Shown here: positions 8,231 to 15,676 of the stretch, one piece after another | Numbering within the stretch: the stretch's first letter is position 1 | How the letters are laid out: every line of letters starts with the position of its first letter | Origin: Actinomycetota bacterium | Lineage (GTDB): Bacteria; Actinomycetota; Acidimicrobiia; Acidimicrobiales; Microtrichaceae | Length of the DNA: 35,657 bases | Direction of reading: 5' to 3' | NCBI GenBank assembly: GCA_947473395.1 | Contig: CANJEC010000004.1 | Coordinates: 1-35,657, forward strand | Program-made: the position numbers and the translations under genes | Notes under the pieces: model-generated | What the model was told of the DNA's origin: nothing | The model's input: the letters and a program-made list of their open reading frames with translations, nothing else | The model's database searches: none

Positions 8231-8298
8231 GTGCTTGCCGTTCCTCGGCTTTCCCTAACCGACTCAGCGCGGAACGCGGTTGAGTAATTTTGGTGCTT

Positions 8299-8325
8299 GG
8301 GCGCCGCAAACAACCTCCGGCGCCC
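8299..8325. promoter_or_regulatory. Dyad (gggcgcc N13 ggcgccc) abutting a -10-like TACACT at 8327-8332; candidate operator
   Basis: Perfect 7-bp inverted repeat directly upstream of the putative -10 for the gene at 8365. Confidence 0.5.
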
Positions 8326-8364
8326 CTACACTGTAAGTCGCATACCTATCAAGAGGAGCGGTTC

Positions 8365-8892
8365 GTGTCGCAGCACATGGTTATCTTTCAAAATCCAGAC
8401 GGCGATCCTGGCTACAACCAGTTCGAGTCGATCGATGAGGCCGTGAGCTTCGTTGAGAAGATCCGAAATGACCAAGGAGTGGACAGTGTCCGCATCTTTG
8501 AGCTGAACGAGGTCAAGTTTGAACTCAAGCCGTACTACAAGGTCAAGCTGCAGGCTTTGACCACTGGGTCTGCCCCAGCGGCTGCACCAGCACCAGCACC
8601 AGCACCAGTTGCTGCACCGGCACCAGCACCGGCACCAGCGCCAGCTGCTGCTCCTGCGCCTGCGCCTGCGCCAGCTGCTGCTCCGGCACCCGCGCCAACT
8701 CCGGACCCGGCCTTTAGTCCGTTCGCTTCGCCAACGGCTCCTGCACCTGCTCCGGCACCTGCACCTGCTCCTGCTCCGGCACCTGCTCCGGCACCTGCTC
8801 CGGCGTCAGCTCCTGCTGCAGCACCAGTTCCACCAGCGGATCAGCCGGCCGAAGAGAGCCAGCCCACCCGCCGCGGATTGTTCGGCCGCTGA
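8365..8892 (+). CDS. Hypothetical protein: ~70-aa N-terminal domain, long Pro/Ala-rich tract, conserved-looking RRGLFGR C-terminus
   Basis: GTG at 8365 preceded by aagaggag RBS; MSQHMVIFQNPDGDPGYNQFESIDEAVSFVEKIRNDQGVDSVRIFELNEVKF... then (AP)n. Confidence 0.75.
   Translation: MSQHMVIFQNPDGDPGYNQFESIDEAVSFVEKIRNDQGVDSVRIFELNEVKFELKPYYKVKLQALTTGSAPAAAPAPAPAPVAAPAPAPAPAPAAAPAPAPAPAAAPAPAPTPDPAFSPFASPTAPAPAPAPAPAPAPAPAPAPAPASAPAAAPVPPADQPAEESQPTRRGLFGR
8577..8826 (+). repeat. Low-complexity gcaccagca/gctcctgca-type tract encoding (Ala-Pro)n
   Basis: Read directly; mixed Ala and Pro codons. Confidence 0.85.
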
Positions 8893-9015: not shown

Positions 9016-9375
9016 CTAGGTGACTAGGAAAACAACTCCAACAAGCACCACGCTCAGGACTACGCCAATGATTGCCGCGATACCAATCACGGTCAGCGCT
9101 AGGAGCATGGTTGATCTTGCGCGAACGGCCGGGGTGATGGTTACATCTCGTGCCCTCCGACCCCGGATAGGTACCCCTTCGGAATCAGACGTGTCACTGT
9201 CATCTTGCAAGACCGAACCGAACCTGCTGGGGATTGCCTCAGTAAATTCATCTGACGCAACTCCGACGGCCAATCCCGTGGCAGGCTGAGGGACCGGCCG
9301 ACGTCCAAACAGGGCGTATCCAAAGCCAAGAGCGCTCAGCACCACTATCAGGATTCCAACGAACAGCGTGAACAT
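9016..9375 (-). CDS. Small membrane protein with N- and C-terminal TM segments (119 aa)
   Basis: MFTLFVGILIVVLSALGFGYALFG ... MLLALTVIGIAAIIGVVLSVVLVGVVFLVT. Confidence 0.65.
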   Translation of the reverse strand: MFTLFVGILIVVLSALGFGYALFGRRPVPQPATGLAVGVASDEFTEAIPSRFGSVLQDDSDTSDSEGVPIRGRRARDVTITPAVRARSTMLLALTVIGIAAIIGVVLSVVLVGVVFLVT

Positions 9376-10567
9376 GACAGACCAGACACTACCAACCGAG
9401 CAAGGGTCCTCGACAGTTAGTTCGAGCGCTGATTCCGCGGCTGGCTTTGGCAGTGCATCTACTCCGGCAAGTCTCGAAGTGGATGTCGAGAACGATTCCA
9501 GCTCACAACTTGAAAAAGGCAGTCAACCCAAAACTCGCTGGGTCGCCTTGGGCCTTTTGGGAATATTCGGCGCAGCGCTCATTGCTGCGATCTTCTTGAT
9601 TCGTCTTCCGTTCTATCTGGTGCAACCAGGCTCAGTTCGACCCGCAGAACAGCGTATTGACATCTCGGGGGCCAAGAGCTTCGAGAATAAGGGTGACATT
9701 TTGTTCACCACAGTCTTTGTCGATCAGGCAACGCCTGCGCTGATGCTGCGGGGCTGGCTTGATGATGCAGTCGAGATCCGCACGCGTGACGAGATGTACC
9801 CGGACGGTGATCGCAAGGCCAGTCAGGAACAGAACCAAGTGCGGATGGACCTGTCGAAGCTAACTGCGACCCGCGTGGCCTTGCAGTACCTCGGGATCGA
9901 GGCAACCTACGACGCGGATGGCACTCGCGTGCTTGCCGTTCAGTCGGAAGCGCCATCAGCGGGTGTGTTGTTGCCCGGCGATGTCATCATTGCAGTGGAT
10001 GGCGCAGAAATTGCACTGCCCTCTGATATCGCTCCTGAGTTGGCAGATCATGCTCCTGGGGACCAAGTGCAGGTAGTGGTCCGCAGACCGGCGCCGGACG
10101 GCCAGCAAGTTCGCCAGGAACTCGACGTGACCTTGGGCGCTGCCGGCGATGAGGCTGGGCGCCCGATCTTGGGCATCGAGGCGGAACCGGATGCTCCTTC
10201 CATTGATTCGGCCGTGAACGTCACCGTTGACTCTGGCACGGTGTCTGGACCATCGGCGGGACTCGCTTGGACCTTGGCGATTCTGGATCGCCTGACTCCT
10301 GGATCCCTGACTAGGGGTCGAACCGTCGCTGTGACTGGAGAGATCCTCGATGATGGAACTGTCGGACCGATCGGGGGAATTCTTCAGAAGGTCTCCGCTG
10401 TGAAACGTGCCGGCGTGAAGATGTTTATTTATCCTGCAGCTACCCCGCCTGAGGAGCAAAAGGAAATGCGAGCCTTGGCTGGAAAGCAACTTGAGCTCCG
10501 CCCAGTTGAGAATCTGGATCAGGCAGTTCAGGCGCTTTCACCCCAAGGGATTCAGTTGCCAGGGTGA
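9374..10567 (+). CDS. Membrane-anchored PDZ-domain, Lon-like (S16) serine protease, YlbL type
   Basis: N-terminal TM, PDZ segment 'GVLLPGDVIIAVDGAEI', catalytic 'SGPSAGLAWTLAILD' and 'AVTGEILDDGTVGPIGGILQKVSAVKRAGVKMFIYP'; GTG 9368 is an alternative start. Confidence 0.92.
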   Translation: MTDQTLPTEQGSSTVSSSADSAAGFGSASTPASLEVDVENDSSSQLEKGSQPKTRWVALGLLGIFGAALIAAIFLIRLPFYLVQPGSVRPAEQRIDISGAKSFENKGDILFTTVFVDQATPALMLRGWLDDAVEIRTRDEMYPDGDRKASQEQNQVRMDLSKLTATRVALQYLGIEATYDADGTRVLAVQSEAPSAGVLLPGDVIIAVDGAEIALPSDIAPELADHAPGDQVQVVVRRPAPDGQQVRQELDVTLGAAGDEAGRPILGIEAEPDAPSIDSAVNVTVDSGTVSGPSAGLAWTLAILDRLTPGSLTRGRTVAVTGEILDDGTVGPIGGILQKVSAVKRAGVKMFIYPAATPPEEQKEMRALAGKQLELRPVENLDQAVQALSPQGIQLPG

Positions 10568-10605
10568 GCTTTGTTAGGTTCCGCCACACGCGGCCCCCGG
10601 ACTTC

Positions 10606-10618: not shown

Positions 10619-12718
10619 ATGACTGACATGTTGCCCGACCCGCCCGAGATTGATCCAGCGGTCTTGGCAGGCACTCACTTCGAGAAAGTTCGAAAGGGCC
10701 TCGACCCCGTTTCGGTGCAAGCGACCCTCGGAAGGGCAGCAGATGCGCTGCGAATTTGGGAACTACGGGACCGTCAGCTTCGGCAGAAGGTGGCAGCGCT
10801 AGAAGAGCAAGTCGTTGAGTCCCAGAACCTTGACGAGTCGCGAATGGTCTCGGTACTCGGTGAGGAGACTGCCAAAATCGTTACCGCTGCAAAAGAGGCC
10901 GCAACGGCAATTCGAACCAAGGCAGAAGAACAGGCTGAACGACTTCTACGAGAGACCGAAGCCTCCTCGACAGCTGCAGCAGAACTACTGATTAGCGAGT
11001 CAACGGAACAACGCAATGAGGCCAACCGCCTTCGGTTGGAAGCCACAGTTGAAGCTGAACGTATGAGCGCCGAATCAACAGCGGCTGCAGACGCGTTGAG
11101 TGCTGCCGCGTTGCAGCGACATGACGAATTAATTGAACAGGCTGAGTCGCTCCTTGAGCTGAGGACCAACGAGGCGGAGCTAGCCGCCGATGCCATTCGG
11201 GTTGCTTCTCTCGCTGAGGTTGCTGCAGCGAACTCCGAAGCGAATGATATTCGCGTGGATGCAGAGCAGGCTGCTGCTGCGAGCAAGGAACAGGCTCGCG
11301 AGGAGGGCCGCGCCATGGTTGCCGAAGCCAAGGCAATCAAGGAGCGCATGTTTGAAGACCTTGCTGCTAGGCGCACCACCGCCCGCCGCCAGATCGAGGC
11401 TTCTCGAGGTGGTCGTGATCGGATTGTGGAGTTGCTTCGTGCCGCAGTTACGGATGTCGCAAGCACGATCGAAGGCCTCGAGGACTCCGAGGCTGAGGTA
11501 CAAGCAGCGGGACTCGACGCAGCGAATCAGATCGAGGACGATATCGATGATGTCCTCGCAGAGTTGCTGCCGAACTCGGGAGAACCGAGCCCGGTAGAAC
11601 CGTCAGAGTCGAACTCGGAGCCGGCTCTCAGTCTGGTTGAGTCTCTTCCGGAGGTTGAGGCTGTTGAGGTCGTTGAGACCGTTGAGGCTGTTGAGGTCGT
11701 TGAGGCTGTTGAGGTCGTTGAGACTGTTGAGGCGCTCGTGCTTGTCGAGACGGTTGAAACCGTTGAGAGAGTTGAAACACTCGAGGTTGTCGAGACGCTT
11801 GAGATTGTGGATTCCCTCGAGGAAGTTGAGATTGTCGAGAGGCTGGAGATAGTCGAGACAGTTGAGATTCTCGAGACACTCGAGCTAGTTGAGGACCCTC
11901 CGGGCGAGGACGCACCGCTCGCAGATGAAGCACCCCTCGCAGATGAAGCTGCCGAAAGCGGAGCCACCGTGCATGACCTGTTTGCACGAATCCGCTCGCA
12001 AGGCCTGATCGAGGATCAGCCAGAGGTTCCGCGTGATGCCTCTATGGACGAGCGAGACAGGTTGCTCCTGCCCGTCGAGAAACAGCTGTCAAAGGCCCTT
12101 CGCCGCCTTGCATCTGATGAACAAAATGATGCTCTGGATTACCTGCGGCGTATCAAGACCTCGCGTCCCGATTTTGCGAAGGTGCTGGATGCCCCAGAAC
12201 GTGTGCTGACGAAGTTCGCCGATGCTCTCATTGATGACTTCACTCAAGCTGTTGCCGCTGGATCAGAGTTCTGGGCGACGGTTTCGGGTGTCTCTGCTGA
12301 TTCCCTCTTTAGCGAGGATGATCAAATCGAGGAGTGCCTGCGATCCAACCTGGAGCAGTTCTTAGAGACTCATCGGGCTCATCTGGAGCGCAACTTCAGA
12401 GATGGTGACGAGGAGGGCCTTGAGAACAGCGAGCGAGCTGAACGCATTCGAGCTACGTATCGCGATTGGCGGTCTGGTTCGCTGAACGAGCTTGCTGGAG
12501 ATCTTGCAACTGCTGGTTTTGCCCAAGGCGAGCGATTGGCTGCGGGGCCAGGAACTCAGTGGTGTTGGGCAGTGGACCACGGTGGCTTGCCGTGTGCTGA
12601 CGGCGAGGACAACGCACTTGAGGGGGCGATTGCCTGTGGAGACCCGTTCCCGACTGGCGATATCACCCCGCCTGCACACCCCGGCTGCCGATGCATCCTT
12701 CTACCGGCGCATCTGTAG
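10619..12718 (+). CDS. DivIVA-like N-terminus, long coiled coil, VEx repeat tract and phage MuF-like Cys/His C-terminal motif (699 aa)
   Basis: N-term 'THFEKVRKGLDPVSVQATLGRAADALRIWELRDRQLRQKVAALEEQ'; Ala/Glu heptads; C-term 'WCWAVDHGGLPCADGEDNALEGAIACGDPFPTGDITPPAHPGCRCILLP'. Confidence 0.8.
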   Translation: MTDMLPDPPEIDPAVLAGTHFEKVRKGLDPVSVQATLGRAADALRIWELRDRQLRQKVAALEEQVVESQNLDESRMVSVLGEETAKIVTAAKEAATAIRTKAEEQAERLLRETEASSTAAAELLISESTEQRNEANRLRLEATVEAERMSAESTAAADALSAAALQRHDELIEQAESLLELRTNEAELAADAIRVASLAEVAAANSEANDIRVDAEQAAAASKEQAREEGRAMVAEAKAIKERMFEDLAARRTTARRQIEASRGGRDRIVELLRAAVTDVASTIEGLEDSEAEVQAAGLDAANQIEDDIDDVLAELLPNSGEPSPVEPSESNSEPALSLVESLPEVEAVEVVETVEAVEVVEAVEVVETVEALVLVETVETVERVETLEVVETLEIVDSLEEVEIVERLEIVETVEILETLELVEDPPGEDAPLADEAPLADEAAESGATVHDLFARIRSQGLIEDQPEVPRDASMDERDRLLLPVEKQLSKALRRLASDEQNDALDYLRRIKTSRPDFAKVLDAPERVLTKFADALIDDFTQAVAAGSEFWATVSGVSADSLFSEDDQIEECLRSNLEQFLETHRAHLERNFRDGDEEGLENSERAERIRATYRDWRSGSLNELAGDLATAGFAQGERLAAGPGTQWCWAVDHGGLPCADGEDNALEGAIACGDPFPTGDITPPAHPGCRCILLPAHL
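11647..11910 (+). repeat. Degenerate 9-bp (gttgagNNN) tandem repeat encoding (V/L)Ex triplets
   Basis: gttgaggtcgttgagaccgttgaggctgttgaggtcgttgag... read directly. Confidence 0.85.
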
Positions 12719-12727: not shown

Positions 12728-15676
12728 GTGCGCATTCCGAGTGACATGCCTGATCAGCCAAGCGGCGATCTAGGACAGACCAAAAAACGGGGAAGCTCTA
12801 ATCGAGGACGGACTCTGCTGGCAGTCTCCTTGGTCCTTGTTGTCATTTTGGCGCTGTCCATGCGCGCTATCGCAACTTTTTGGACTGACTTCCTGTGGTT
12901 TGACCAACTCGACTTGTCCAGTGTCTGGAGGCGACTGCTATCAGCCAAAGTCACCTTAGGTGCGGCCACCACCTTGGTCTTTTTTGTGTTGCTCTGGGGC
13001 AACTTGATGCTTGCGGATCGATTGGCTCCCAAGTATCAGGCGATCCCTGGCCCCGAGGACGAGTTGCTCGTTCGGTATCGCGAGCTTGTGGCTGGACGCC
13101 AACGAGTGTTGTGGCTGGTGGTGGCATTCTTTATTGCTGTGATTCCGGGATTCGGAGCCTCAGCACAATGGCAGGAGTGGCTGCTATTCAGGTTTGGCGG
13201 ATCATTCCCGCAGAACGACCCAGAATTTGGTGTCGATATTGGTTTCTACGTCTTCAAGCTTCCGTTCTTGTCATCAGTCGTGGACTGGATGTTTGGGTTC
13301 CTCATTGTCACCGCAGTGGTGGTTGCAGTCGTCCACTACCTCAACGGGGCGATTCGAGTTCACCCCATGGGCGAACGCGTGACGCAGCCGGCCAAGGCTC
13401 AGCTCTCTGTTCTGCTCGCCCTTGCTGCGTTCACCAAGGCGTTGGATTATTGGTTGCAACGCTTTGAACTGCTGACTTCATCTGGGTCATCGTTCGATGG
13501 TGCCGGCTACTCCGATATTTCGGCCGCTCTTCCCGCGATCCAATTGATGATTCTGATTTCGATTTTTGCTGGATTGATGTTGCTGGTCAACATCAGACGG
13601 AAAGGGTGGGCCCTACCCGCAATCATTTTGGGTCTCTGGGCTTTGATTGCAATTGTTGCCGGTGGCGTCTATCCCGCATTTGTCCAGCGTTTTCAAGTGG
13701 AACCTGCAGAACTTGCCAAAGAGAAGCCGTACATCGAGCGAAATATCAGCGCAACACGAACAGCACTCGACCTGAGCAACGTTGGCAAGGTGGATTTCAA
13801 CTACGAGCCGGAGTTGACTGCAGAGGCTGCAAAGTCCGAGCAGACCAACATGGCGAATGCTCGCCTCTTGGATCCAACAATTGTGCTGCCCACGATTCAA
13901 GATCTGCAGGTGGAGCGTGAGTACTACCGCTTCTTAGATGTTGACGTTGATCGCTATGACATAGCTGGCAAGCGCACTCCGGTGGTCATCACGTCCAGAG
14001 AGTTGAACCTAGACGGCGTAACCAACCCGACTTGGGAGAAACTGCATCTGGTATTTACGCACGGCTACGCGGCCGCCCTTGCACCCGCGAACGAGGCCAA
14101 CGATCGCGGCGAGCCCGAGTTCTTGGTTCAGGGAATTCCGCCCGAGTCAACGGATGCTCCAGAGTTGGATCAACCAGAAATCTATGTGGGTGAGGGGATG
14201 TCTGGCTATGCCATCACCGGTACCAAGCAGACCGAGCTGAGTTCAGACAACGTCACTACGGAGTACAGCGGAAAAGACGGCGTGCCCGTTGATTCCACCA
14301 TTCGTAAAGCCGCTTTTGCCCTTCGTTTCGGAGAGATCGAACCGCTGATTTCTGACAGTGTGACTGACTCTTCAAAGATTGTGTACAACCGCGACGTCGT
14401 AGATCGGGTGCGAGAGATTGCGCCTTTCTTGGAGCTCGACCAAGACCCGTATCCGATTCTGCGAGATGGCCGTGTGCAGTACATCGTCGATGCCTACACG
14501 ACGACGAGCCATTATCCCTACGCTCAGAGTGTCAATGCCGCTGAGGTTTCAGCAGGTACCTCTGGCACCTTCAACTACATCCGCAATTCGGCCAAGGCGC
14601 TTGTTGATTCTTACGACGGTTCCGTAACGCTCTACTTGACTGATGAGTTGTACGGAGGTCAGACAGATCCCATTATTCAGGCGTACGCTCAAGCCTTCCC
14701 GGGCCTGTTTACGTCCAAAATCCCCGACTCAGTGAAGCAGCACTTCCGCTATCCGGAGTTCATGTTTAAGACTCAGACTGTTGCTTGGGGTCGCTACCAC
14801 CAGACGGACCCGTCGACGTTCTTTAACAACAGCGACCGATGGGTGGTGGCACAGCAGCCCTCTGATCGCGGTGCTGGAGCAGTGCAGGCGGATAGCAGTT
14901 CCGGTGCGTCGGCCGAGGCTCAAACAGCGATTGACCCCTACTACCAAGAACTCAAGATCGGCTCAGCAGAGACTGCTCAGTTCGTGCTGACCCGCCCGTT
15001 TGTGCTCTCTTCGGGAGATGGAACCGGCCGAAACCTCACCTCGGTCATGATCGCTCGAAACGACCCGGATAACTACGGCAAGCTTGAAGAGATCGTGATG
15101 GTTACCTCTGCCGATGGCAAGACCGAGCGCAACAACAGCGTTGATGGGCCAGTTCAGGCAAATCGCAAGATGGTGACGTACGGACCCGTGACCGAGTACC
15201 AAACCCTGACTGGTCAGATTGGTTCAACCATGCGTTACGGCAACATTTTGATCCTGCCGCAGGGCGACTCACTGGTCTATATGAGACCAATTTACGTGGC
15301 ACAAGAGGACAGCACCAGGTTCACCGTCAAGAAGGTCGTGATGGTCTCTGGCGATGCAGTGGGCTTTGGAGACAGCGTTGAGCAGGCCCTAGCGGACCTT
15401 GTGGATTCGAAGCCTGACGGGGCTGCTGTCATTCCATCGGTAACGGTTCCATCAACGAACTCCGATCCTGGAAACAGCAGTACCACGGTTCCTTCCGGCG
15501 AGGAACGCACAGCAACCGAACTGATTGCGCAGGCTGATCAGAAGTTCACCGAAGCAGATGAGCGACTCAAGGCTTCAGACCTAGCTGGCTATGCAGCCCT
15601 TGTGGCCGAGGCGCGAGTGCTTATTGCGCAAGCCTCGGCAAAACTTGTTGCCGAGGGTGCTACAGCCAAGCCCTAG
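12728..15676 (+). CDS. UPF0182 family large membrane protein
   Basis: Seven-or-so N-terminal TM segments then large extracellular domain: 'TDFLWFDQLDLSSVWRRLLSAK', 'VYPAFVQRFQVEPAELAKEKPYIERNISATRTAL', 'FRYPEFMFKTQTVAWGRYHQTDPSTFFNNSDRW'. Confidence 0.93.
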   Translation: MRIPSDMPDQPSGDLGQTKKRGSSNRGRTLLAVSLVLVVILALSMRAIATFWTDFLWFDQLDLSSVWRRLLSAKVTLGAATTLVFFVLLWGNLMLADRLAPKYQAIPGPEDELLVRYRELVAGRQRVLWLVVAFFIAVIPGFGASAQWQEWLLFRFGGSFPQNDPEFGVDIGFYVFKLPFLSSVVDWMFGFLIVTAVVVAVVHYLNGAIRVHPMGERVTQPAKAQLSVLLALAAFTKALDYWLQRFELLTSSGSSFDGAGYSDISAALPAIQLMILISIFAGLMLLVNIRRKGWALPAIILGLWALIAIVAGGVYPAFVQRFQVEPAELAKEKPYIERNISATRTALDLSNVGKVDFNYEPELTAEAAKSEQTNMANARLLDPTIVLPTIQDLQVEREYYRFLDVDVDRYDIAGKRTPVVITSRELNLDGVTNPTWEKLHLVFTHGYAAALAPANEANDRGEPEFLVQGIPPESTDAPELDQPEIYVGEGMSGYAITGTKQTELSSDNVTTEYSGKDGVPVDSTIRKAAFALRFGEIEPLISDSVTDSSKIVYNRDVVDRVREIAPFLELDQDPYPILRDGRVQYIVDAYTTTSHYPYAQSVNAAEVSAGTSGTFNYIRNSAKALVDSYDGSVTLYLTDELYGGQTDPIIQAYAQAFPGLFTSKIPDSVKQHFRYPEFMFKTQTVAWGRYHQTDPSTFFNNSDRWVVAQQPSDRGAGAVQADSSSGASAEAQTAIDPYYQELKIGSAETAQFVLTRPFVLSSGDGTGRNLTSVMIARNDPDNYGKLEEIVMVTSADGKTERNNSVDGPVQANRKMVTYGPVTEYQTLTGQIGSTMRYGNILILPQGDSLVYMRPIYVAQEDSTRFTVKKVVMVSGDAVGFGDSVEQALADLVDSKPDGAAVIPSVTVPSTNSDPGNSSTTVPSGEERTATELIAQADQKFTEADERLKASDLAGYAALVAEARVLIAQASAKLVAEGATAKP

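Follow-up and report, generated by a model that had tools for sequence, protein, structure and literature searches.

The window analysed here, a stretch of 35,657 nucleotides from an Actinomycetota bacterium, encodes a 699-aa protein in which a DivIVA-like N-terminus, a probable coiled coil and a Val/Glu-rich (VE) linker are fused to a C-terminal domain that is, by profile comparison and predicted fold, related to the MuF proteins of phage heads (phage Mu gpF, SPP1 gp7). The gene adjoins UPF0182 in 60/60 loci, and not portal or terminase genes. Since this combination of DivIVA with a phage-head domain stands before UPF0182 in every one of these loci, it looks like a phage part that was turned into a part of the cell envelope. 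The reading that we favour, as somewhat more likely than not, is that a phage MuF domain was captured and became part of a DivIVA scaffold that binds UPF0182 through its MuF end. We regard as evenly balanced the broader proposal that the domesticated domain is a dedicated cytoplasmic partner of UPF0182 across several actinobacterial classes, tying UPF0182 to the pole or division site. MuF is known as a head domain of phages and prophages, and 87% of chromosomal muf genes have a portal or terminase gene nearby (Jamet et al., 2017; PMC5576092). We found no earlier report in the open-access literature of a DivIVA-MuF protein, of an Acidimicrobiia MuF protein or of this operon. With a MuF domain that has settled in a host operon in a large share of the phylum and is under strong purifying selection, a virion part has clearly become a cell part. 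The uncharacterised, widespread UPF0182 thereby gains a specific partner that can be tested and a candidate location (pole or septum), and the MuF fold can be studied in a stable cellular context.

The fusion gene, its parts and its two immediate neighbors have the following window coordinates:

9368..10567, + strand, SepM-like S16 (Lon_C) peptidase with a PDZ domain (Lon_C 6e-13, PDZ_2 4e-11)
10619..12718, + strand, DivIVA-coiled coil-VE linker-MuF fusion gene (ORF and translation, 699 aa; conserved family)
10676..10972, + strand, DivIVA domain, residues 20-118 (PF05103 4.7e-5)
10946..11578, + strand, Ala/Glu-rich segment, probable coiled coil, about residues 110-320 (from the sequence, judged by eye)
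11624..11908, + strand, VE-repeat linker, about residues 336-430 (58% V+E; the fastest-evolving part)
12032..12715, + strand, MuF-like domain, predicted long helical bundle with a C-terminal Cys/His tail (phrog_2662 6e-8; AF2 model; BFVD; hhalign)
12566..12694, + strand, MuF tail motif W..D..GG.PC.DxEDN.L.G...FPTG...PPAHPGCRC (alignment A1)
12728..15676, + strand, UPF0182 (PF03699 6e-235), the constant downstream partner

The ATG at 10619 was taken as the start of the fusion ORF, rather than the TTG at 10571 that would lengthen it, because the first start available in a relative (L006) is the ATG equivalent to 10619. The 699-aa ORF and the C-terminus quoted in the initial annotation are exact, as is its placement of the gene between a PDZ-S16 protease, whose gene ends 51 bases upstream, and UPF0182, which begins 9 bases downstream. 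The S16 protein also matches the NF041438 SepM family (5e-37), under that model's cut-off. The annotated window ORFs are cellular, including MreB, branched-chain amino acid transport genes, a HEAT protein, DedA, H+-PPase, CHAD, Wzy_C and others (some of these names were read from translations), and no phage genes were seen among them, which bears out the earlier statement that the window holds no other phage gene. The MreB gene lies at 1502-2551 (PF06723, 8e-127). At 8290-8892, upstream of the S16 gene, is a gene for a protein with Ala/Pro repeats whose N-terminal half is non-repetitive; searched whole with tblastn, this protein matched many relatives' loci, some of the matches probably coming from the repeats.

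At the N-terminus of the fusion, the PF05103 match of the window protein is borderline, scoring 23.8 bits alone and 28.3 bits in a whole-genome scan with a cut-off of 28. The same model is above cut-off in 9/10 diverse relatives (L281 falls under it), as is TIGR03544 in 5/5 fusion relatives scanned, supporting the DivIVA-like N-terminus first read from the window. The VE tract that had been described was found again within the limits listed above; an LED-repeat Pfam match on it was under cut-off and was discarded as due to composition. A PDB sequence search with the N-terminal half of the fusion found nothing. The fusion resembles DivIVA/Wag31 (PF05103, NF050102) in that a DivIVA domain at the N-terminus leads into a probable coiled coil, but differs in its extra C-terminal MuF domain and in being, in at least three members, a paralogue of a DivIVA-like gene beside sepF. 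In these genomes (G005, G009, G020), the sepF-adjacent place typical of DivIVA is held by a separate, canonical DivIVA-like gene and not by the fusion, which is therefore an additional DivIVA paralogue there. On the same ground, we rejected the fusion as the sole DivIVA of the window's family.

A MuF-type domain was found in 79/99 relatives at the order level, and in 57 of a sample of 397 genomes from the phylum, other classes included. The gene is present at the same locus in relatives, and neither of the two results that the initial annotation had named as refuting it (a C-terminus unrelated to MuF, or a gene missing from this locus in relatives) was obtained. Among the 20 order-level relatives without a domain match, four carry a diverged copy, and five (G028, G041, G052, G060, G098; the G028 genome is only 55% complete) have no detected UPF0182 gene, the fusion also being missing. 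In three more (G022, G023, G033), the UPF0182 match starts close to a contig start, at a distance of about 360 bases or less. The eight remaining MuF-negative loci comprise one with a DivIVA protein at this position without MuF (L277), one whose protein resembles the fusion family by eye and is under the search threshold (L275), three in which S16 and UPF0182 adjoin and the fusion gene is gone (L273, L276, L279), and three that are ambiguous (L272, L278, L282). In some lineages the gene is lost entirely, or its product has lost the MuF domain or the Cys/His tail, and UPF0182 without a MuF partner was seen both elsewhere in the Actinomycetota and in one cyanobacterium. Three loci (L071, L098, L104) come from MAG records titled Bifidobacterium breve that hold an Acidimicrobiia locus, and their organism names look wrong.

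Where present, the fusion gene lies immediately upstream of UPF0182 on the same strand, in 40/40 order-level loci and 20/20 wider loci (in four of the latter, where automatic gene picking had overlooked the MuF ORF, adjacency comes from match coordinates), with a median gap of 52 nt. The pairing persists where S16 is not adjacent; the protease is a frequent, but not constant, upstream neighbor, and is missing beside the gene in several families. The trio of protease, MuF protein and UPF0182 that had been proposed as a unit stands with respect to UPF0182, which adjoins the gene throughout, but not with respect to S16, which is missing beside it in many lineages. Two genomes, G048 (L280, L281) and G271 (L228, L229), have two UPF0182 genes each, with a MuF-family gene beside each, and all four of these MuF-family genes are without the Cys/His tail. 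Two weak domain matches lie away from UPF0182 (G021:C16, G469:C97). Five loci (L044, L063, L231, L235, L238) carry upstream, on the same strand and replacing S16, a gene that by eye encodes a FecR-like lipoprotein, preceded in turn by another large ORF on the same strand, and in L066 a large membrane ORF lies directly upstream of the MuF gene.

In the mechanism that we propose, the MuF domain of a tailed phage would have been captured, probably once and early in part of the Actinomycetota, onto the C-terminus of a DivIVA-type coiled-coil protein. The DivIVA end would hold the fusion at the cytoplasmic face of a curved membrane (pole or septum), the coiled coil would oligomerise it, the VE linker would be flexible, and the MuF helical bundle would dock UPF0182, presumably co-expressed, or a complex that contains it; where present, the S16/PDZ protease, expected outside, may act on the same complex. 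The model for MuF as a docking module is the phage head, in which this helical bundle attaches minor head proteins to the portal; SPP1 gp7 binds strongly to the portal, yet assembly can proceed without it (PMC6316719). UPF0182 is the best candidate for the partner of the MuF end because the linkage is fixed and the two genes have duplicated jointly. We infer from these features a polar or envelope function for the fusion. UPF0182 can do without the module, since it occurs elsewhere without MuF and the module has been lost in a few Acidimicrobiales.

The AF2 model of UPF0182 (pLDDT 89) has long N-terminal helices followed by a large mixed domain, and its seven long N-terminal helices are probably transmembrane. 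A fold search with this model against the PDB gave no significant match, the corresponding sequence search found nothing, and UPF0182 showed no resemblance to portals in the fold search, a point against the docking model. We take Rv3193c to be the M. tuberculosis member of UPF0182, and Rv3194c-Rv3193c to be a PDZ-Lon protease and UPF0182 that are adjacent in mycobacteria. An equivalent S16-UPF0182 adjacency was observed in L285 and L287, where, in contrast to the window, no MuF gene lies between the two. Rv3193c, with 7 TMH, is a TnSeq hit in a strain mutated in rv0954, whose product belongs to the divisome (PMC8093794); this genetic link between mycobacterial UPF0182 and a divisome gene is in line with the docking model.

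The main rival to docking on UPF0182, possible but in our judgment rather unlikely, is that the fusion works as a second DivIVA and organises the envelope or nucleoid independently of UPF0182, the adjacency being merely an inherited operon; the MuF part might then act, for example, by DNA binding. In line with this, the title of an SPP1 paper that appears in the reference lists of the MuF literature calls gp7 DNA-binding, DivIVA alone persists at the locus in L277, and the fusion is extra to the canonical DivIVA-like gene beside sepF in the three genomes mentioned. Such independence does not sit well with a fusion-UPF0182 pair that is kept while the rest of the operon changes, and that is doubled where UPF0182 is doubled. 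Distances between MuF domains and between UPF0182 proteins also correlate (r 0.45, Mantel 0/2000; partial r 0.26 given S16), a correlation that shared vertical descent alone could also give.

Within the genus, dN/dS was 0.015-0.036 for the MuF part, 0.03-0.07 for DivIVA and 0.05-0.12 for the coiled-coil segment, while dN of the linker reached 0.16-0.30, compared with 0.005-0.05 in the MuF part, and its dN/dS was higher. Selection is strongly purifying and is concentrated on the DivIVA and MuF ends. A chance ORF was rejected on the basis of the low MuF dN/dS within the genus and the order-wide conservation. The description of the domain as host-adopted, made initially from the window alone, gains strong support from conservation across the order and phylum, from synteny and from purifying selection. 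In a tree built from a short alignment, with a phage sample partly gathered with the cellular profile, a single branch (support 0.92) divided the cellular MuF domains from 32/33 phage sequences, a topology consistent with a single old capture of the domain.

These measurements also bear on the suggestion that the protein serves the host in phage interference, either with MuF as a decoy or dominant-negative on phage portals, or by mis-targeting virion proteins to the pole. MuF does bind the portal in SPP1 (PMC6316719), and phage relatives of the domain are present in environmental virus contigs. Defence genes, however, move and diversify, whereas this gene combines low dN/dS with vertical inheritance and a fixed linkage to UPF0182, and no defence neighbors were noticed. 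Because of the purifying selection and vertical inheritance, we consider this role improbable.

The MuF relationship of the C-terminus was examined by several routes. The family phrog_2662, which consists of portal-MuF fusions, matches the window domain at 6e-8 across about 207 residues and is matched by 48/53 order-level relatives (best 8.1e-16). Profile-profile comparison with hhalign, against phage sets partly gathered by a search seeded with the cellular alignment, gave 99.1% probability for mostly standalone phage MuF proteins and 98.9% for portal-MuF fusions. Since seeding of this kind affects the phage sets, the phage comparison proteins were themselves tested for MuF identity against PHROGs, in which they match head-morphogenesis, minor head and portal families; one of them, from Brevundimonas phage Strzyga, is a genuine portal protein that ends in MuF. 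When the AlphaFold (AF2) model of the domain (pLDDT 91.9) was used in a fold search of BFVD, a comparison of predicted with predicted structures, 62 viral matches were obtained at E <= 0.001, with TMq up to 0.72. Those top matches that carry a name were for the most part minor capsid, head-morphogenesis and portal proteins, portal-MuF among them; a usable name was missing for many of the 50 best matches listed.

Curated MuF models gave weaker matches. PF04233 had no hit on the window protein and matched 17/53 relatives weakly (best 8.5e-6), TIGR01641 matched the window protein at E 0.011, under cut-off, and relatives reached at most 28.4 bits on these models, compared with a cut-off of 29.6. 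Searching phages with the window protein by tblastn returned weak single hits (best 5e-3), 25/37 of them in genes annotated as head, capsid or portal, the remainder in unannotated, hypothetical or unrelated genes; the same search with relative L063 found nothing. In the PDB, a sequence search with the MuF profile returned coiled-coil noise only, a fold search with the MuF model gave nothing significant, and no solved structure of the MuF fold was found. PHROGs, the sub-threshold NCBIfam and Pfam matches, the fold search and the profile comparison that the initial annotation had suggested all agree with the MuF relationship it proposed. A generic coiled coil with a convergent Cys/His tail and no MuF ancestry would account for PF04233 and TIGR01641 being under their cut-offs on the window protein and for the empty PDB sequence and fold searches. 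We nevertheless judge it very improbable in view of the long phrog_2662 match and its recurrence among relatives, the 99% hhalign match to standalone phage MuF proteins that share C..C..N....FPTGD..PPAHPxC.C, and the kinds of protein named among the top viral fold matches. Least credible of all is a prophage remnant or gene-transfer-agent part lying by chance beside UPF0182, for although the domain is phage-related, the annotated window ORFs include no phage genes, the neighbors are housekeeping genes, and the domain is kept in place across the order and other classes under purifying selection; a prophage origin in situ was ruled out by the conserved locus and cellular neighbors.

The C-terminal domain of the fusion ends in ...PPAHPGCRCILLPAHL, and the cellular tail closely resembles the phage tail VEWLVAEGCDDCQENADASPIGIDETFPTGDTEPPAHPNCMC. 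Its putative metal ligands are C217, H245, C248 and C250 (alignment A1 numbering). W208, C248 and C250 are invariant in 53/53 order-level relatives, H245 is kept in 50/53 and C217 in 48/53, and position 220, the second Cys of CPDC, is Cys in 26/53, Ala in 18 and Gly in 9. In the window copy, CPDC reads CADG, so that C217 is retained and the second Cys is replaced by Gly. Metal binding by the tail is plausible, and what had been called a zinc-binding end is intact only in part in the window copy, one motif Cys having been lost in the window's lineage. The family members in L274, L280, L281, L283, L284 and L290 stop short of the tail, and class-level relatives L225, L226, L228 and L229 have degenerate or missing tails.

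Compared with known systems, the domain shares with the phage MuF superfamily (PF04233, TIGR01641) and phrog_2662 a helical domain followed by W...C..C...FPTG..PPAHPxCxC, in addition to profile and fold matches. In contrast to phage MuF, the cellular form lies in a conserved chromosomal operon, fused to DivIVA and not beside portal or terminase genes, with one motif Cys fewer in the window's lineage and no tail in some cellular lineages. MuF polymorphic toxins also join MuF to another domain, but they are phage proteins with MuF at the N-terminus and the toxin at the C-terminus, whereas the fusion has MuF at its C-terminus and no toxin domain (Jamet et al., 2017; PMC5576092). One MuF protein from a viral contig (L151) is 489 aa long, and its C-terminal half is ADP-ribosyltransferase-like (phrog_3895).
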